Assembly (NCBI RefSeq): GCF_021729085.1
Contig: NZ_JAJSAR010000003.1
Coordinates: 186,001-250,000 of the forward strand
Length of the DNA stretch: 64,000 bases
From: Pseudohongiella sp. O18
Lineage (GTDB): Bacteria > Pseudomonadota > Gammaproteobacteria > Pseudomonadales > Pseudohongiellaceae
Direction: 5' to 3'
In this document: one piece after another, positions 4,107 through 30,477 of the stretch
Position numbering within the stretch: the stretch's first letter is position 1
How the letters are laid out: each line of letters opens with the position of its first letter
Translations under genes and position numbers: made by a program
The notes under the pieces: generated by a model
The model's input: only the letters and a program-made list of their open reading frames with translations
Database searches by the model: none
What the model was told of the DNA's origin: nothing

Positions 4107-5657
4107 ATGAAGATTTCGCTCCAGCTCAAACTCGGTCAACAGCTGACCATGACCCCCCAGCTGCAACAGGCAATTCGCCTGCTGCAACTGTCGACGCTTG
4201 ACCTTCAGAACGAGATTCACGAGGCACTGGAATCAAATCCAATGCTGGAGGTAGATGAGTCTCCCGACAGCGATAGCAGCGATCGTTACGAGAACAGCGA
4301 TAACACTGATAAGGCCAATGGTGCTGATGAAGCAACCGACTCACGCACCTACGAGGAGCGCCAGAACGCCTTCGACGAGGTCACTGCGGCCACACCTTCC
4401 AATACCGACAGCGATACTGGCGAAGCCGGCTGGGAGGAACACATTCCCGAGCAGCTTTCTGTGGATACCAACTGGGATGATATTTACCAGACCACCTACT
4501 CCACGGGCAGCCCGATGGCAGACACGGATGATTTCGAATCACGTGACTCCGCCTCAGAAACTCTGCAGGACCACCTCAACTGGCAATTGAACCTTACCAA
4601 CATGTCGGATACCGACCGGCTGATTGGCATGGCAATCATTGATGCCATTGATGCCAACGGCCAGCTGTCGCTGAGCGTTGAGGCCATTCACGAAGGCCTG
4701 ATGGATGATATCGAAGAGCTGGAAGAGGATGAGGTACTCGCCGTATTGCATCGCATTCAGCAGTTCGACCCGGTGGGGGTCGCCTACCGCGACCTGTCGG
4801 AATGCCTTTTGATCCAGTTAAATCAGGTCCCGTCCGAACTCGAGACCGATCCCGTGCGGCACGCCAAGATACTGGTGCGGGACTACCTGGCCCTGTTGGG
4901 CAATCGGGACTACGCCCAGATCATGCGGCTCACACGCTTGAAAGAGCCGGAGCTGCGCGATGCGATTGCCATCATCGAAAAACTTAATCCACGTCCGGGC
5001 GCCGATATCGCACCATCCAGCGCCACCTACGTTATCCCTGATGTGATTGTCAGCAAAGACACCCGCAGCGGGCGCTGGCGTGTCGAGCTCAATCCGGAAA
5101 CAGCGCCCAAGCTGCGTATCAACGCCGATTACGCAGCGCTGGTCAAACGTTCCGATAACAGCTCCGACAACAACTATCTGCGCGACAACCTGCAGGAGGC
5201 ACGCTGGTTCCTCAAGAGCCTGCAAAGTCGTAACGAGACACTGCTGAAAGTAGCCTCGCGCATTGTCGAGCATCAGCAGGGTTTCCTGGAGCAGGGCGAA
5301 GAGGCCATGAAACCGCTGGTCCTGCATGACATTGCCGAAGCAGTAGAGATGCATGAATCAACCATCTCCCGGGTAACCACTCAAAAATACATGCACACGC
5401 CGCGCGGGATATTCGAGCTCAAGTACTTTTTCTCCAGTCACGTCAGTACCGCTGGCGGAGGCGAATGCTCATCAACCGCGATACGCGCACTGATCAAAAA
5501 GCTGGTTGCTGGCGAAAACCCGCGCAAACCACTCAGCGACAGCAAAATCACTCAGTTGCTGGAAGACCAGGGCATTAATGTCGCCCGCCGGACAATCGCC
5601 AAATATCGCGAATCCCTGTCCATCCCCCCTTCCAATGAACGCAAGCGGCTGGTCTGA
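4107..5657 (+). CDS. rpoN: RNA polymerase sigma-54 factor RpoN
   Basis: Alternative sigma factor for -24/-12 promoters that need AAA+ activators. 516 aa, slightly longer than the E. coli protein (477) because of a long acidic linker at about residues 50-135 ([15 protein letters not shown] and following). Region I is the classical Gln/Leu-rich start ([23 protein letters not shown] without a break). The core-binding and HTH regions follow. The RpoN box is [10 protein letters not shown] at 493-502, one conservative V-to-I change from the usual form. A candidate client, the promoter at 27832, lies in this same window and its likely activator is CbrB. Confidence 0.97.
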
Positions 5658-23161: not shown

Positions 23162-23186
23162 ATGCCGAACCAGAATCGGAAACGTC

Positions 23187-23363
23187 ATGTATCTGCCACC
23201 TGCAACACTGATTGTCATACTGTTCACCTACCTGGTGTTTCTGGTCAGCGTGGAATGGGCCATGCAGATGGACGGCGCATGGTATCGCCCCTTTGTGTTG
23301 TGCTTTCTGGTAATAGCCGCGGGCGCATGGGCATATCGGGAACAGAACTCCGATGAGCTTTGA
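23187..23363 (+). CDS. Small membrane protein upstream of cbrA (CbrX-like)
   Basis: 58 codons, starting at ATG 23187 with GGAA 5 nt upstream and ending TGA at 23361-23363, overlapping the cbrA start at 23353 by 11 bp. The product is almost wholly hydrophobic: MYLPPATLIVILFTYLVFLV, then a short loop EWAMQMDGAWYR, then PFVLCFLVIAAGAWAYR and a charged tail. Two transmembrane helices are expected. In Pseudomonas putida a small gene, cbrX, overlaps cbrA in the same way and is translationally coupled to it. A longer frame from 23162 in another phase is hydrophilic, low-complexity and judged a shadow. Confidence 0.7.
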   Translation: MYLPPATLIVILFTYLVFLVSVEWAMQMDGAWYRPFVLCFLVIAAGAWAYREQNSDEL

Positions 23364-26283
23364 ACTCAGTACATTATTCGCGCTGGGTATTGGTTATCTG
23401 GCCATTCTGTTTGGCATCGCTTTCATTACAGAAAAGGGCTGGATACCCGAGCGCGTGGTGCGCCATCCCATCGTGTATGTTCTCTCGCTCGGTGTGTTTG
23501 CCAGTGTCTGGTCCTATTACGCGTCTACAGGCAATGCCTTCAGGGACGGTTTTGGCTATCTGGCTCCGTTCATTGGTATCTCCCTGGCCTTCCTGCTGTC
23601 GCCGCTCATACTGCGCCCCATTCTGAATCTGACAAAGACCTATCAGCTCAGCTCACTCGCAGACCTGCTGGCGTTTCGCTATCGCAGCCCCTGGGCCGGC
23701 ACGCTGACGACACTGATCATGTTGATCGGTGTCATGCCACTGCTCGCCCTGCAGATTCAGGCAGTAGCCAATACAGTAGGCCTTTTATCACCAGACGCGA
23801 CTCAGACCACTCTGGCACTGACCTTCTGCCTGCTGATCACGCTGTTTGCGATATTTTTTGGCACCGGCAAGGGCTCCGGCCGCGAACGTCATGACGGTCT
23901 GGTCATGACCATTGCGTTCGAGTCCCTGGTTAAATTGCTGGCCGTATTGCTGGTCGGCTGGTTTGCCGTTCATGAGGGATTTGGAGGCTTCGCCGCCATG
24001 GAGGAGTGGCTGCAGGACCAGCCGGAACTGCTGCGACGCTTGAAAGAGCCAGCGCCTCCCGGCACGTTTCAGGTCCAGATGTTGATATTCTTTACGGCTG
24101 CTGTGGCAACGCCACACATGTTTTACATTACCTTTCACGAGAACAATCATCCCAGAGCACTGAATGTTGCCAGCTGGGGTCTGCCCCTGTATTTCCTGTT
24201 GTTGAGCCTGCCGGTGCTGCCCATTCTCTGGGCAGGTCTGAATTCGGGCAGCCTGACACCCATGGAGTACTACCCAGTCACTCTGGGTATTGACTACGAC
24301 ACACCCCTGATGACGCTGATCGGCTTTCTGGGCGGACTGTCAGCAGCCAGTGGTCTGATTATTGTTATCACCCTCGCCCTGTCGACGATGTGTCTGAACC
24401 ACTTGATCCTGCCCATCTGGCAACCTAGGGCAAACCAGGACATTTACCGGTGGCTGCTGTGGAAACGTCGAGCCTTGATTGCTGCACTGATATGGGGTGG
24501 CTTCCTGTTTTACTACATCCCCTCAGACAGCCAGAGCATTCGTGCCGTCAGCAACATTGGCCTGGTGGGCAGCCTGCAGTTTCTGCCGGCAGTTATTGCG
24601 CTACTTTACTGGCCGCGTGGCAACAAAAAAGGTTTCATGGCCGGTGTGGCGGCAGGCACGGTAATCTGGGTGACCTTGCTGGTATTGCCGGTGGCGACCG
24701 GATTCAATCTGGTGGTGCTGGATGGCATGAACACACGCGTCATCATAGCCCTGTCGCTGATCTGCAACATCATCCTGTTCATCACCGTGTCACTGATGAC
24801 ACGCAGTTCGACTGAAGAAAAAGTGTCTGCGGATATCTGCTCAGTCGACAACCTGCGGCGCCAGCGACGCGCCAGGGTCAGCGCCGGTTCGGCCGATGAG
24901 TTCATATCCCAGCTCACCAAACCGCTGGGCGAGCGGACCGCAACACGAGAGGTCATGCAGGCTCTTCGCGACCTCAATATGGATAAAAAAGACAAACGCC
25001 CCAAGTCGCTGCGTTTACTGCGCGGCCGCCTGGAGGCCAACCTGTCGGGTCTGCTCGGCCCCGCCATTGCACATGACCTGATTGATCGATTCCTGCCCTA
25101 CACAGCCAACAGTGAACCCGGCGCATCCGACGTCGCTGCGATCGAGAATCGAATTGAGGCCTATCGCAGCAATCTGTCGGGCATGGCGGCCGACCTGGAC
25201 AACCTGCGCCGCTATCATCGCCAGATTCTAATGGATCTGCCGCTGGGCGTCTGCTCACTGGGACCGGAAGACCAGATCATTATGTGGAACCATGCCATGG
25301 AGAGCCTGACCGGCATCACTCCTGACGAGGCCGCCGGTCTGCAGCTGGGAGAAATCGGTGAACCCTGGTTCTCGCTGCTCAATCAATTCAGAACGGGCGA
25401 CAACACGCATCAGCATAAAGCCACCGTCAACATCCACGGCAGCAAACGCTATGTCAGTCTGCACAAGGCTGTCATCGAAAAGTCAGCCAGCCCCAGGATA
25501 CGTCAGGACGGCGTGATCATTCTGCTGGAAGACCTGACGGAAACCGAGTTGCTAGAAGAAGAACTCGCGCACAGTGAACGTCTGGCTTCCATTGGTCGCC
25601 TGGCTGCAGGCGTAGCGCATGAAATCGGCAACCCTATTACCGGCATTGCCTGCCTGGCACAGAATGTCCGTGATGAAACGCAGAATGATGAAATACGAAA
25701 CATGGCCCGCCAGATCATCGAACAGACAGATCGCACCTCGCGCATCGTACAGTCGCTGGTTAACTTCGCTCACAGCGGCAGTCACAACAAATCTGACCAG
25801 CGCAAAGAACGGGTATCAATATCTGAGTGCATCGATGAGGCCATTACGCTGGTGTCGCTTAACAAGAAGGGCAAGTACATGAACTTCGATGTGCGTTGCG
25901 ATGAGCCGGCCTTTATTCTGGGGGACTCACAGCAGCTGCTGCAGGTACTTGTAAACCTGATCAATAACGCCCGCGATGCCAGCCCGGAGCAAAGTACGAT
26001 AAGCGTTAACTGTGAGCGTATAGCCGCCTCGGTACAGATCAGCGTCAGTGATGAAGGCACAGGCATCCCGGACTCCATCAAAGACCGCATTTTTGAGCCC
26101 TTCTTTACGACCAAGGAGCCAGGAGAAGGAACCGGACTGGGCCTGTCACTGGTTTACAGCCTGGTTGAAAACCTTGGCGGACATATTGATATAATGAATG
26201 CTTCGGCGCGCACCGATAACCCCGGTGCTAAGGTAATTCTGAGTTTTCCCTGTTATGATGCGCAACACGCTCCCAACTCCTGA
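23353..26283 (+). CDS. cbrA: Transporter-fused sensor histidine kinase CbrA
   Basis: 976 aa. Residues 1 to about 500 form an SLC5 (Na+/solute symporter) domain with about 13 helices, including FFTAAVATPHMFYITFHENN. A STAC-like linker follows (about 500-600), then a PAS domain (ILMDLPLGVCSLGPEDQII, about 620-720). The kinase core has H-box AAGVAHEIGNPITGIA, N-box VLVNLINNARDAS, G1 DEGTGIPD and G2 GEGTGLGLSL. In Pseudomonas CbrA senses carbon/nitrogen status, with histidine among possible transporter-domain ligands, and phosphorylates CbrB. Gene order dksA-gluQ-cbrX-cbrA-cbrB supports orthology over the related CrbS, whose partner is not an NtrC-type regulator. Confidence 0.93.
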   Translation: MSFELSTLFALGIGYLAILFGIAFITEKGWIPERVVRHPIVYVLSLGVFASVWSYYASTGNAFRDGFGYLAPFIGISLAFLLSPLILRPILNLTKTYQLSSLADLLAFRYRSPWAGTLTTLIMLIGVMPLLALQIQAVANTVGLLSPDATQTTLALTFCLLITLFAIFFGTGKGSGRERHDGLVMTIAFESLVKLLAVLLVGWFAVHEGFGGFAAMEEWLQDQPELLRRLKEPAPPGTFQVQMLIFFTAAVATPHMFYITFHENNHPRALNVASWGLPLYFLLLSLPVLPILWAGLNSGSLTPMEYYPVTLGIDYDTPLMTLIGFLGGLSAASGLIIVITLALSTMCLNHLILPIWQPRANQDIYRWLLWKRRALIAALIWGGFLFYYIPSDSQSIRAVSNIGLVGSLQFLPAVIALLYWPRGNKKGFMAGVAAGTVIWVTLLVLPVATGFNLVVLDGMNTRVIIALSLICNIILFITVSLMTRSSTEEKVSADICSVDNLRRQRRARVSAGSADEFISQLTKPLGERTATREVMQALRDLNMDKKDKRPKSLRLLRGRLEANLSGLLGPAIAHDLIDRFLPYTANSEPGASDVAAIENRIEAYRSNLSGMAADLDNLRRYHRQILMDLPLGVCSLGPEDQIIMWNHAMESLTGITPDEAAGLQLGEIGEPWFSLLNQFRTGDNTHQHKATVNIHGSKRYVSLHKAVIEKSASPRIRQDGVIILLEDLTETELLEEELAHSERLASIGRLAAGVAHEIGNPITGIACLAQNVRDETQNDEIRNMARQIIEQTDRTSRIVQSLVNFAHSGSHNKSDQRKERVSISECIDEAITLVSLNKKGKYMNFDVRCDEPAFILGDSQQLLQVLVNLINNARDASPEQSTISVNCERIAASVQISVSDEGTGIPDSIKDRIFEPFFTTKEPGEGTGLGLSLVYSLVENLGGHIDIMNASARTDNPGAKVILSFPCYDAQHAPNS

Positions 26284-26309: not shown

Positions 26310-27707
26310 ATGACGATGACAGCAAAGCACAAGGTTCTGGTAGTAGAAGACGAACAGGTGATTCGTACGGCATTGCGCCGGCTGCTGGAACGTCATGATT
26401 ATCAGGTCAGTGAGGCTGGCTCAGTCAAAGACGCTCTTGAACTTCTGGCAGCGCAGACATTTGATATTGTTGTCAGTGACCTGCGTCTGCCCGGCGCACC
26501 TGGCACAGATCTGATCAAGGCCACCAGCACGCCAGTCCTGATCATGACCAGCTACTCCAGCCTGCGTTCTGCCATCGATTCAATGAAGCTGGGTGCGGTG
26601 GACTACATACCAAAGCCCTTCGAGCATGAAGAAATGCTTCAGGCTGTCGCCCGCATCATTAAAGATCACGGCACCAGAGTCCCCGAGACACCCGTCAGAG
26701 CACCGGTTCAGGAGATCTCAGAACCACCCGTGCCAGGAATGATCGGCAGCTGCCCGCAGATGATGGAGCTGTTCAGACGTATTCGCAAAGTCGCCATGAC
26801 CAGCTCAACTGTGCTGATCAATGGCGAAAGCGGCACTGGCAAAGAGCTCGTAGCCCAGGCAATACACAAACTCAGCGACCGCAAGGATTCCGAAATGATA
26901 TCGGTCAACTGCGCCGCCATTCCGGAAAACCTGATCGAGTCAGAGCTGTTTGGTCATGAGAAAGGTGCGTTCACTGGCGCGACAGCCAACCGCACCGGCC
27001 TGGTCGAGGCTGCCAATGGCAGCACATTGTTCCTGGACGAGATAGGTGAACTACCGCTTGACGCACAGGCCCGCCTGCTGCGGGTACTGCAGGAAAGCGA
27101 GATTCGCAAAGTGGGTTCTGTACAGTCGCGCAAGGTCGATGTTCGCCTGGTGGCAGCCACCCACCGAGACCTCAAGCAGCTGGTTATCGACGGCGATTTC
27201 CGCGAGGATCTGTATTACCGAATCAACGTCATGACGCTGATTCTGCCACCGCTCAGGGAGCGCGGTAACGACATCCTGGAACTCGCTGACGCCATCCTCG
27301 GCCGCACCTGCAGACGCCTTAAGTCGCCGCTGCTGACGTTTACCCGGGATGCAACCCAGGCGATTGCCGACTACTCCTGGCCAGGCAACGTCCGCGAGCT
27401 GGAAAACGCCATCGAACGTGCTGTTGTGCTGGCTGAAACCGACGAAATAGGTGCCGAACTGCTGGCAATCGACCTTAACAGCAAAAAAGCCATTCGGCCG
27501 ATGACCGAGCGCACTCAGCATACGGCAAGCGAAGAAGATGATTCTGCCGAAGAACTCTCTCTGGAGGACTACTTCCAGAAATTCGTCCTTGAGCATCAGG
27601 ACCAGATGAATGAAACACAGCTCGCCAAGAAGCTGGGTATCAGCCGCAAATGTCTCTGGGAGCGCCGCCAGCGGTTCGGCCTGCCGCGCAAGAAAAAACA
27701 AGCCTGA
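26310..27707 (+). CDS. cbrB: Sigma-54-dependent response regulator CbrB
   Basis: 465 aa NtrC-family activator. The receiver domain (residues 1-120) has the phosphoacceptor Asp in VVSDLRLPG and the switch lysine in YIPKPFE. The AAA+ domain (about 145-375) has Walker A GESGTGKE, the sigma-54-contact loop GAFTGA in [14 protein letters not shown], and Walker [12 protein letters not shown] Fis-type HTH closes the protein ([20 protein letters not shown]). It starts 26 bp after cbrA. In Pseudomonas CbrB activates crcZ through RpoN; a sigma-54 promoter and an upstream inverted repeat lie immediately downstream here. Confidence 0.95.
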
Positions 27708-27712
27708 GATTG

Positions 27713-27758
27713 TGTTACCGATACTCAACTACCCAGTCAAGTGTGAATTGGGGTAACA
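27713..27758 (+). promoter_or_regulatory. Candidate CbrB upstream activating sequence
   Basis: TGTTACC at 27713-27719 and GGTAACA at 27752-27758 are perfect inverted 7-mers separated by 32 bp. They centre about 125 bp upstream of the predicted sRNA start, a normal enhancer position for an NtrC-type activator. TGTTAC/GTAACA half-sites are what I recall for Pseudomonas CbrB at crcZ; the spacing here was not compared with a reference. Confidence 0.5.
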
Positions 27759-27831
27759 GATTCCCTGATCTACACAGTCACCAAACAGTCACAAAATTCA
27801 CAAGCAACTGATAAACAAAGAAATTTAATTG

Positions 27832-27848
27832 TTGGCACACTACGTGCA
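27832..27848 (+). promoter_or_regulatory. Sigma-54 (-24/-12) promoter of the CrcZ-like RNA
   Basis: TTGGCACACTACGTGCA contains the invariant GG (27834-27835) and GC (27846-27847) with the required 10 bases between. The TTGGCAC half matches the sigma-54 consensus exactly; the -12 half is TGCA. Predicted transcription start is about 27858-27860. The sigma-54 gene and an AAA+ activator gene are both in this window. Confidence 0.75.
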
Positions 27849-27857
27849 CTAGTACGC

Positions 27858-28121
27858 GCAATAACAATAAAAAGACACAATAAAAATAAATCGCTAAAAA
27901 CAATAAAAATTCGCATCGCTTATGGTGCAAAATAATAAAAATAATCTGACAGGAAGGTAATGAGTCAGGTCTTGCTGATCACTACCGACACTGTGACTGG
28001 ACAGAAAAGAACTGTCACCAACAACAAAAGGCATCCAAAAGTTGCCTGTAAACAAGAACAAAAAGAAATAACAATAAAAATAATCAAATACCTTCCTTGC
28101 GGGGGGGTCGAGTCACCCCCC
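27858..28121 (+). ncRNA. crcZ: CrcZ-like Hfq/Crc-sequestering small RNA
   Basis: The 555 bp between cbrB and pcnB hold no convincing protein gene. Downstream of the sigma-54 promoter the sequence becomes A-rich, with at least six AAnAAnAA clusters: near 27860 (AATAACAATAAAAA), 27877, 27896, 27929, 28020 (AACAACAAAA), and 28050-28090. The run ends at a GC hairpin at 28101-28121. In Pseudomonas, CrcZ lies at this same place (cbrB-pcnB), is transcribed from a CbrB/RpoN promoter, and relieves catabolite repression by titrating Hfq with Crc. The predicted 5' end, GCAATAAC, also resembles CrcZ. The 3' end is uncertain because the hairpin lacks a T-run. Confidence 0.72.
28101..28121 (+). terminator. 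GC hairpin at the 3' end of the CrcZ-like RNA
   Basis: A run of seven G at 28101-28107 can pair with six C at 28116-28121 across a short loop (TCGAGTCA region). No T-tract follows, so it may be a processing or stability hairpin rather than a full intrinsic terminator. Read-through into pcnB remains possible. Confidence 0.4.
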
Positions 28122-28163
28122 AGAGCATTTCACCCTGCACTCCTCGTTCACTTCAGTGTATTA

Positions 28164-28191
28164 TTGGCCTTTGTTACAGATCCTGTATTAG
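28164..28191 (+). promoter_or_regulatory. Possible promoter for pcnB
   Basis: TTGGCC (28164-28169) and TATTAG (28186-28191) are separated by 16 bp, about 70 bp upstream of the pcnB ATG and after the RNA hairpin. Weak matches to sigma-70; offered because pcnB would otherwise depend on read-through from crcZ. Confidence 0.25.
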
Positions 28192-28261
28192 TGCATCATG
28201 CGTGCTTTACAGTCCATAAGGGCTGATCGGGGTCATACAGTGAACGGACACAGATGCCTAG

Positions 28262-29830
28262 ATGTTTAAAAAGCTAACCCGCCTTTTGACAGGTCGCCCG
28301 TGGCGAGACACGGGAATCACGGATGGTGCCAACAGTGCCGACAGTGCCGCTGGCCAACACGACCAGAGTCGCAAAACCAGGCGTCTGGAGCATCCTTCAT
28401 CAGAGAAACCGGGCCGACAGAAGGCCACTTCCCGTCACGGCAAACCCAGCGCAAAAACAGTAGCAGAGACTTCACCTGCCAAGTTGCTGGGTATGGACCT
28501 GCACGACGTCGACATCATCGCCCGCGAAGACCACCATATTTCACGCAAGGACATATCAGCCAACGCACTCAAGGTGCTTTATCGTCTCAACGATGCCGGC
28601 TATCCGGCCTTTCTGGTGGGTGGTGGCGTACGCGACCTGTTGCTGGGCGGCCACCCTAAAGATTTCGACATCTCGACCAATGCGACACCCGAACAGGTCA
28701 AAGATCTGTTCCGTAATTCCCGCGTGGTTGGCCGACGCTTCAAGATTGCTCACGTTCGTTTTGGACGGGAGATTATTGAGGTCACTACCTTCCGCGCACA
28801 CCACGAGATTGAAATTGAAGTGGAAGATGACCAGCCGCGCAAACATATCCGCGACCTGGATTCGGCCCACACCACCGGCGGCATGATTCTGCGCGATAAC
28901 GTTTATGGCTCTATCAACGAAGACGCCATGCGACGCGACTTCACCGTCAACGCGCTGTATTACACAACCAAGGGTTTTTTGCTGCTGGACTTTGTCAAAG
29001 GTCTGGCAGACATTGATGCGCGCCTGATTCGTATGATCGGCGATCCGGAAACCCGCTATCGCGAAGATCCTGTGCGTATTCTGCGTGCGATACGCCTGGC
29101 CGCCAAGCTGGACTTCCAGATCGAAGCTGCCACCGAGGCACCTCTTAAAGAACTGGCAGGTTTGTTGAAACTGATATCCCCAGCCCGTCTGTTCGATGAG
29201 ACGGTCAAACTGTTTACGACTGGCAAGGCGGAGGCAACATTTGCGCTGCTGCGTCACTATGGAGTCGCCGACTACCTTTTCAAACCGGTCATGCCCTATC
29301 TCAAGGATGCGGACTCCATCGACAGCAAACTGATCTCTCTGGCGCTGCGAAACACAGACCAGAGACTGGCAGACGGTAAATCAGTCACTCCCGCGTTCCT
29401 GTATTCGGCGCTGCTGTGGCCCGCTCTCAAGGATGCGCTGACGGACACGGATGGCAATAGACCACCGGCCATGCCGGTTATTCAGCGCGAAGCTTCGGAA
29501 GTTATCAGTCGACAGCTGACGTACACGTCAATTCCCAAGCGTTTCACTGCCATGATGCGAGAAATCTGGGAGCTGCAGTGGCGTCTGCAGCCGCGAAGCC
29601 GGCGCAATGTGGAGAGTGTGATTGCTCACCCTCGATTCAGGGCTGCCTACGACTTCCTGCTGCTGCGAGAAGCTTCCGGTGAAAATCTTGGTGGTATTGG
29701 TGACTGGTGGACACGGTTCCAGGATGGCGATCATGCCCTGCAGGAGAGCATGATTGGCGATCTGCAGCCGGCGCGGTCGCCAAAACGGCGACGCCGCAAA
29801 CCCCGTAAACCCGCGGAGCCCAGCAACTGA
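28262..29830 (+). CDS. pcnB: Poly(A) polymerase I
   Basis: Adds poly(A) tails to RNA 3' ends, promoting decay. 522 aa, long because of a basic, low-complexity N-terminal extension (residues 1-75, rich in Ser, Lys, Arg, with TSRHGKPSAKT). The nucleotidyltransferase core has FLVGGGVRDLLLG and the catalytic DFDIST. The tRNA-nucleotidyltransferase-like body follows with RYREDPVRILRAIRLAAKLDF. The C-terminus is very basic (SPKRRRRKPRKPAE), an RNA-binding tail typical of PcnB and distinguishing it from CCA-adding enzymes. The stop overlaps the next ATG by one base (TGATG). Confidence 0.93.
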   Translation: MFKKLTRLLTGRPWRDTGITDGANSADSAAGQHDQSRKTRRLEHPSSEKPGRQKATSRHGKPSAKTVAETSPAKLLGMDLHDVDIIAREDHHISRKDISANALKVLYRLNDAGYPAFLVGGGVRDLLLGGHPKDFDISTNATPEQVKDLFRNSRVVGRRFKIAHVRFGREIIEVTTFRAHHEIEIEVEDDQPRKHIRDLDSAHTTGGMILRDNVYGSINEDAMRRDFTVNALYYTTKGFLLLDFVKGLADIDARLIRMIGDPETRYREDPVRILRAIRLAAKLDFQIEAATEAPLKELAGLLKLISPARLFDETVKLFTTGKAEATFALLRHYGVADYLFKPVMPYLKDADSIDSKLISLALRNTDQRLADGKSVTPAFLYSALLWPALKDALTDTDGNRPPAMPVIQREASEVISRQLTYTSIPKRFTAMMREIWELQWRLQPRSRRNVESVIAHPRFRAAYDFLLLREASGENLGGIGDWWTRFQDGDHALQESMIGDLQPARSPKRRRRKPRKPAEPSN

Positions 29831-30477
29831 TGTACTATCTGCCTCGCTATATCGCAGTGGAAGGCCCGATTGGCGTCGGCAAAACCAGCCTCGCCAAACG
29901 ACTGGCCGAATCGTTCAACTACGATATAGTGCTGGAGAAACCCGAAGACAATCCTTTCCTGGAACGTTTTTATCGCAACCCCAAACAGCATGCGCTGGCC
30001 ACCCAGCTGTTCTTCCTGTTCCAGCGCTCGCAGCAGTTACAGGGACTGAAACAGAATGACCTGTTTGAGCCGGTCAGGGTGGCCGACTTTCTGATCGAGA
30101 AAGACATGCTGTTTGCACAGCAGAACCTCGACCCGGATGAATTTCAACTCTATCAAACCGTCTATCAACACCTGACGATTGATGCGCCAGTACCCGATCT
30201 GGTGATTTATCTGCAGGCCCCTACACCCGTATTGCTGGCCCGCATTCAGAAACGCGGTATTGCTGCCGAGCAGGCGATTGAGGCGGATTATCTGGAGCGA
30301 CTCAACAACGCCTATACCACCTTTTTTCACTACTACGACCGCTCTCCCCTGCTGATCGTTAATTGCAGTGACCTGGACCTGGTCGGTCGCGATGACGACT
30401 ACGAACAACTGGTCAACCAGATCAAATCAGGGCTGCGTGGTGTACACTATTTCAATCCTAAGCCCACCTTGCTGTGA
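29830..30477 (+). CDS. Deoxynucleoside kinase (dNK/deoxyadenosine-deoxyguanosine kinase family)
   Basis: Salvage kinase transferring phosphate from ATP to deoxynucleosides. 215 aa. P-loop EGPIGVGKTSLAKRL is near residue 8. LEKPEDNPFLERFY follows, then the substrate-base region LFFLFQRSQQL, the DRS-like ADFLIEKDMLFA and the lid RIQKRGIAAEQ. It sits exactly where Pseudomonas has folK, between pcnB and panB, and overlaps pcnB by one base. In other gammaproteobacteria a kinase of this kind is found next to or fused with FolK; no FolK sequence is present here. Confidence 0.88.
   Translation: MYYLPRYIAVEGPIGVGKTSLAKRLAESFNYDIVLEKPEDNPFLERFYRNPKQHALATQLFFLFQRSQQLQGLKQNDLFEPVRVADFLIEKDMLFAQQNLDPDEFQLYQTVYQHLTIDAPVPDLVIYLQAPTPVLLARIQKRGIAAEQAIEADYLERLNNAYTTFFHYYDRSPLLIVNCSDLDLVGRDDDYEQLVNQIKSGLRGVHYFNPKPTLL

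Follow-up and report, generated by a model that had tools for sequence, protein, structure and literature searches.

A CrcZ-type RNA, driven by CbrB and RpoN and acting as a decoy for the distal face of Hfq without Crc, is the reading best supported by the sequence for positions 27859 to about 28131 of the window (probability about 0.86); by the window we mean the whole stretch of 64,000 nucleotides analysed (contig C3, 186001–250000). The original prediction had placed a CrcZ-like element between cbrB and pcnB; each part that it named was found in its place, and the likeness is confirmed beyond chance. Its interpretation is partly supported, as likeness and position were right and the proposed partners were only in part. 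Under poor carbon supply, CbrA would signal and CbrB would occupy the subsites at 27713–27758, allowing sigma-54 RNA polymerase at 27833–27848 to transcribe the RNA, whose unstructured (AAN)n arrays would load onto the Hfq distal face. Hfq would then be drawn off the A-rich ribosome-binding sites of catabolic mRNAs, permitting their translation, and in this organism the decoy would act without the Crc co-repressor. The analysis shows the sequence parts, their conservation and the presence of cbrA, cbrB, rpoN and hfq; that the RNA is transcribed under CbrB control and binds Hfq, as well as its targets and role in physiology, we infer.

The genome is 3.47 Mb and 99.99% complete. By CbrB identity to named records, the organism belongs to the genus Pseudohongiella or near it: its CbrB is 98% identical to that of UBA2675 (L060), with Pseudohongiella nitratireducens and others next at 80–85%. 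The genes are ordered dksA, gluQRS, cbrA, cbrB, the gap, pcnB, a deoxynucleoside kinase gene, panB, panC and acs, and the gap (27708–28261) is the place of CrcZ as defined for the family RF01675. The features are as follows.

4107–5657, + strand: rpoN (sigma-54), an ORF on the same contig (TIGR02395, 487 bits, E 3.3e-146)
23353–26283, + strand: cbrA, SLC5-STAC-type sensor kinase (HisKA and HATPase_c)
26310–27707, + strand: cbrB, sigma-54 activator (receiver and Sigma54_activat domains)
27713–27718, + strand: CbrB-type subsite F, TGTTAC (by sequence; similar place in relatives)
27753–27758, + strand: CbrB-type subsite R, GTAACA (by sequence; similar place in relatives)
27833–27848, + strand: sigma-54 promoter TGGCAC-N6-TGCA, TGGCACACTACGTGCA (consensus score 11 positions)
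27859–28131, + strand: proposed CrcZ-type RNA, 3' end uncertain (Rfam match below cut-off; alignment A2)
27860–27873, + strand: (AAN) array 1, 5 units
27879–27889, + strand: (AAN) array 2, 4 units
27896–27909, + strand: (AAN) array 3, 5 units
27913–27928, + strand: small hairpin GCAUC/GGUGC (helix 1), a consensus helix
27931–27944, + strand: (AAN) array 4, 5 units
27950–27993, + strand: covarying helix 2, arms about 27950–27959 and 27983–27993
28020–28027, + strand: (AAN) array 5, 3 units
28030–28046, + strand: possible hairpin GGCAUC/GUUGCC, seen by eye and absent from the consensus fold
28051–28067, + strand: (AAN) array 6, 6 units
28070–28083, + strand: (AAN) array 7, 5 units
28090–28131, + strand: conserved 3' element with GC hairpin and no U tract, near-invariant in A2
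28262–29830, + strand: pcnB (TIGR01942, 486 bits)

CbrB is 65% identical to CbrB of a Pseudomonas-like genome (G054), with near-identical last 40 residues. A deoxynucleoside kinase (PF01712) is encoded at 29830–30477, where Amphritea and also Pseudomonas have folK. A 64-aa ORF without a Pfam match (23162–23356) overlaps the start of cbrA; Amphritea has a hypothetical gene there, and P. putida has cbrX at the equivalent position (PMC8871633). Residues 1–586 of CbrA match PDB 10ed_A (606 aa, 'histidine kinase'; 632 bits, E 1.3e-188), which is probably the CbrA structure of PMC13022988, and no transporter-domain match to CbrA was obtained in the Pfam scan.

The sigma-54 promoter with GG-N10-GC spacing, one of the predicted parts, is present (score 11; GG at 27834–27835, N10, GC at 27846–27847), and its position suggests a transcription start near 27858. 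Nine sigma-54 sites scoring at least 10 occur on the two strands of the window, and only this one precedes any AANAANAA within 350 nt. Upstream, where CrcZ promoters carry TGTTAC/GTAACA elements, two of the three subsites are found by sequence, F and R, 40 bp apart; a third, middle subsite is not recognisable in the window. In P. putida, the CbrB subsites are given as TGTTAC and GTAACA with 20–25 bp between centres (PMC6296734). By eye, two TGTTAC and one GTAAC resembling CbrB subsites also precede a very small ORF at 2391–2460 of locus L005, which encodes a nuclease-fold protein discussed below.

The gap contains eight non-overlapping AANAANAA; 100 dinucleotide shuffles averaged 1.3 and never reached eight. 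When 350-nt segments were scanned every 50 nt on both strands of the whole 64 kb, at least four AANAANAA were found in nine, all on the + strand with starts at 27600–28000. Where at least six AAnAAnAA clusters had been predicted, there are seven (AAN)n arrays of 3–6 units (27860–28083), in agreement with the several A-rich (ARN) Hfq sites that characterise CrcZ (six in PAO1). To compare loci, we called a module any GG-N10-GC sigma-54 site with a score of 10 or more that is followed within 350 nt by three or more AANAANAA and preceded within 180 nt by one or more GTTAC or GTAAC. Of 7,450 dinucleotide-shuffled gaps, 2 show this combination; it is absent from all 824 segments (900 nt each) of 60 other loci, and among the 282 segments of the 64 kb only the one at the locus itself has it. 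The thresholds were chosen after the first gaps were seen, so these figures are not blind.

The Rfam CrcZ model (RF01675) matches 27877–28154 with 34.6 bits (E 1.8e-7). The check proposed with the prediction thus returned a significant match that stays below the gathering cut-off of 95, the score at which Rfam has no match in the window, and the family's own cut-off keeps the RNA out of RF01675. Among 19 more loci, seven give a match at E ≤ 0.1, the best with 66.9 bits (L203), and none reaches the cut-off; the three outsiders among them (L225, L228 and L231) give no CrcZ match. Twelve of these further loci, from other families and species, carry the module, and only some of the twelve have a match at E ≤ 0.1 on the expected strand and in the expected place.

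Alignment A2 comprises 25 sequences from family members, the window included, and in it the arrays are preserved as triplets. When 13 sequences of the genus were compared with the window as reference, substitutions amounted to 28/394 and 16/384 at the two A's of the triplet, 76/304 at N and 812/2252 elsewhere. Since the window's arrays are themselves defined by their A's, a comparison of A's only was added: A's are substituted at 17/91 N positions and 44/778 other A positions (Fisher p 6e-5, an optimistic value because the aligned rows are related). This pattern is the trace expected from Hfq pockets that read A, purine and any base.

Four consensus helices were evaluated in the same alignment. 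They contain 40 pair cells changed on both sides, compared with 14.3 in shuffles (0/500 as high) and with 2–13 when the helices were slid; 39 of the 40 fall in helix 2 (columns 120–129 with 162–172), in which 4/9 pairs show changes on both sides and one of the nine is broken in the window's own sequence. The number of pairs changed on both sides (5, compared with 3.8 in shuffles; 41/500 as high) and the further pair types (75/500 shuffles as high) do not stand out. The predicted GC hairpin is borne out at about 28100–28120, pairing in 25/25 aligned sequences including that of the window, with a loop length that differs by one base among them. The 3' element that contains it gives no covariation test because it hardly varies. 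Its first 17 bases are single-copy in the genome at up to 2 mismatches, so it represents no repeat family. As a side observation, the element (ACCTTCCTTGCGGGGGGG...CCCCCCAGAGCATTTC) varies less across the 25 sequences than a plain terminator would require; in some other genera of the family, a U-tailed hairpin is seen by eye at its place. A terminator scan found none on the + strand, and the 3' end of the RNA is uncertain because the GC hairpin is without a U tract.

These data bear on the idea that the gap encodes an ordinary base-pairing sRNA or a small protein. The covarying helix and the conserved 3' element could contact other RNAs, and an 88-aa ORF exists at 27960–28226, the only ORF of at least 60 aa lying wholly inside the gap. 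Its start and length recur only in the near-identical L011; the remaining 23 of the 25 sequences have, in the frame that spans the 3' element, ORFs of 0–82 aa with other starts. The protein reading was thus rejected, and the description of the gap as lacking a credible gene stands. Given also that, the 3' element aside, the strongest constraint falls on the A's of the triplets, an origin as a base-pairing sRNA or small-protein gene is very improbable, and the Hfq decoy is preferred.

CbrB was found at E ≤ 1e-145 in 204/293 genomes and 91/118 genera of the order, and at E ≤ 1e-140 in 21/274 genomes drawn from the class, three of the 21 belonging to the order. The stretch 3' of cbrB was read in 98 of the 204 CbrB-carrying genomes, covering 36 families of the order. 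The module is present in 84 of the 98 genomes and in 33 of the 36 families examined, including 29/33 in the window's own family. This conservation across the order supports a CrcZ-type RNA in the organism, which is no lone exception. All 84 genomes, picked by promoter and arrays regardless of subsites, carry at least two GTTAC/GTAAC within 180 nt of the promoter, with peaks near −120, −100 and −80 from it; the background in the window is 0.15 per 180-nt stretch.

The misses among the 98 genomes number 14. In G042, G144, G074 and G100, the promoter and subsites are present with only two arrays. The gap of G035 is interrupted by a contig end; its CrcZ (110.8 bits), complete with the promoter, the subsites and seven arrays, is found at the margin of a different contig, ahead of a stretch read by eye as pcnB. 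Three families (f8, f9 and f10) include no passing genome. G041 of family f8 bears, at a locus other than the cbrB–pcnB gap (L102), a sigma-54 site with two subsites and six arrays, a candidate for a moved or second CrcZ as judged by its sequence. Within the window's family, the gaps of three genomes of genus g2 (L048, L053 and L058) measure 511, 411 and 159 nt and lack the module, with pcnB retained, and the module was likely lost in these genomes.

Such exceptions also help to evaluate whether the stretch is simply an AT-rich spacer, or an A-rich leader at the 5' end of pcnB, with no separate RNA. Read-through into pcnB is possible as there is no U-tract terminator; the triplet arrays nevertheless share their conservation with the CbrB subsites and the sigma-54 site, pcnB persists without the module in the three g2 genomes, and the G041 module stands outside the gap. 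A leader or spacer is accordingly most unlikely, and a separate CrcZ-type RNA is favoured.

Named loci give a similar count: 39/40 had a readable gap and 32/39 carry the module, among them Pseudohongiella nitratireducens (L061) and Halomonas litopenaei, although these counts are not independent of the genome counts because many of the 40 look to be of the same species as genomes already counted. Of the seven misses, L085 and Parendozoicomonas (L087) are true ones; the remaining five are loci of other activators (36–51% identity) and have no pcnB. Amphritea japonica, added separately, has the module. Outside the order, none of the seven loci read (of 18 matches) carries the module, and none of these seven has pcnB within about 1.5 kb beyond. 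Some families are richer in arrays, as L198 and L217 have 12 and 14 AANAANAA within 350 nt of the promoter. Family f21, with a CrcZ of 306.8 bits and Crc, can on these grounds be taken as Pseudomonadaceae. A 2022 review describes CbrAB-crcZ as unique to Pseudomonadaceae (PMC8871633), and a literature search returned no report of CrcZ outside Pseudomonadaceae in the extracts of open-licence papers that it covered, a scope that is not proof of absence. The wide distribution of the module, together with the missing Crc described below, is new.

hfq is present in the genome, as the prediction required, and Hfq is near-identical to P. aeruginosa Hfq over residues 1–73. It retains Y25, G29, I30, K31, Q33, Q52 and T61, among them residues of the distal face. 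Ser is found at position 28, where Pseudomonas has N28, and Ala replaces T49, a residue that touches Crc in one complex (PMC6422490).

The other predicted partner fared differently. The genome encodes four nuclease-fold proteins, one XthA-type (L004), one NApe-like (L005) and two distant (L003 and L006). In an alignment of such relatives from 56 genomes with P. aeruginosa Crc, 16 proteins, one each in 16 of 21 other sampled families, keep K135, K139, R140 and R141, which contact RNA in the Hfq/Crc complex (PMC6422490). E35 is found in none of the 16, and D148 is lacking in 14, N150 in 11 and D245 in 13; in a quick tree with some long branches, these dead Crc proteins and P. aeruginosa Crc form one clade (SH-aLRT 100) within NApe-like proteins. 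No Crc with this basic patch and lacking the full active site was found in the window's genome (G000), and a search of the family genomes with a profile of the 16 proteins found dead Crc in 0/35: 34 give NApe-like or XthA-like matches only, and G020 gives no match. The translated family matches all keep E35, D148, N150, D245 and H246. G006 (72% complete) has one XthA-type match only. Dead Crc was likewise not found in G036 (75% complete) and G050, which have the module, and CbrB and Crc do not strictly travel together, because a Crc-like protein (L167) occurs in G048, a genome that gave no match to CbrB at E ≤ 1e-145. Thus, of the predicted sequestration of Hfq/Crc, the Hfq half agrees with the decoy features and with the retained Y25, and the Crc half found no dead-nuclease counterpart.

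The RNA might still act on an Hfq–corepressor complex as in Pseudomonas if the NApe-like L005 replaced Crc. No protein found in the genome is more closely related to Crc than L005 (247 bits to 4jg3 and 301 bits to the Crc profile), which retains R137, R141, E142, W161 and R162 of the Crc surface. However, it keeps the active-site residues E35, D148, N150, D245 and H246 (Crc numbering), has D139 and G140 where 16/16 dead Crc proteins have K139 and R140, and finds its best solved relative in 2jc5 (317 bits), annotated as an exodeoxyribonuclease. Moreover, G037, G042 and G046 carry both a dead Crc and an NApe-like protein, indicating that the two are distinct. Replacement of Crc by L005 is unlikely on this evidence, and a decoy for Hfq without Crc remains the preferred reading. 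In P. aeruginosa, Hfq is reported to be the principal translational repressor and Crc ancillary, and the CrcZ of PAO1, with its six A-rich stretches, titrates Hfq via the distal face (PMC4063720); Crc prolongs the life of Hfq/RNA complexes (PMC5815094). This makes a decoy for Hfq without Crc plausible, and Hfq alone is its likely target since no dead-nuclease Crc was found in the genome.

Possible mRNA targets were sought with AANAANAANAANAA, which occurs 24 times in the genome, including 7 occurrences within the CrcZ-type locus. Among the 17 outside, no catabolic gene was recognised, with L234 and L239 left out of the domain scan, and no clear set of target mRNAs emerged from the genome. A 283-aa ORF starts 7 nt ahead of the overlapping matches L234/L235, and the first start of a 231-aa ORF is 30 nt ahead of L239. 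At 1500–2040 of L237, AACAACAATAACAA is located 24 nt before the ATG of a 172-aa bPH_2 (bacterial PH-domain) protein, whose mRNA is a candidate Hfq target by sequence.

A broader view is that CbrAB–sigma-54–CrcZ is an old, order-wide regulator of Hfq that is separable from Crc, with the RNA titrating Hfq alone in Pseudohongiellaceae and Crc being an add-on; we regard its chances of being right or wrong as evenly balanced. On this view Crc would have arisen, in part of the order, from a duplicate of an NApe-type DNA-repair enzyme whose catalytic activity was lost and which acquired a patch that binds RNA and Hfq. Many other bacteria, marine ones such as Amphritea and Pseudohongiella among them, would control carbon use through an Hfq decoy if the module extends across the order, and both protein annotation and the Rfam cut-off miss it. 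Given the main role of Hfq and the ancillary role of Crc reported in PMC4063720, Crc-less lineages offer a natural test of what Crc contributes.

Among known systems, sRNA99 of Acinetobacter baumannii has AAN motifs and is compared to CrcZ by its authors (PMC12802169). CrcY and CrcX, the extra copies in Pseudomonas and Azotobacter, are also A-rich decoys, and crcY is driven by CbrB/RpoN; unlike their hosts, the window's genome yields no second copy, the only other CrcZ-model match having 8.9 bits. Compared with CrcZ (RF01675; Pseudomonas, Azotobacter), the RNA is shorter (about 270 nt; PAO1 CrcZ, 407 nt), scores below the cut-off, has a 3' hairpin without a U tract and occurs in a genome in which no dead Crc was found. 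The two are alike in the location between cbrB and pcnB, the sigma-54 promoter, the upstream CbrB-type subsites, the several A-rich (ARN) stretches and the hairpin near the 3' end; by the sequence features compared, bar the model score and the Crc partner, the RNA of the window is predicted to have a CrcZ-like function.
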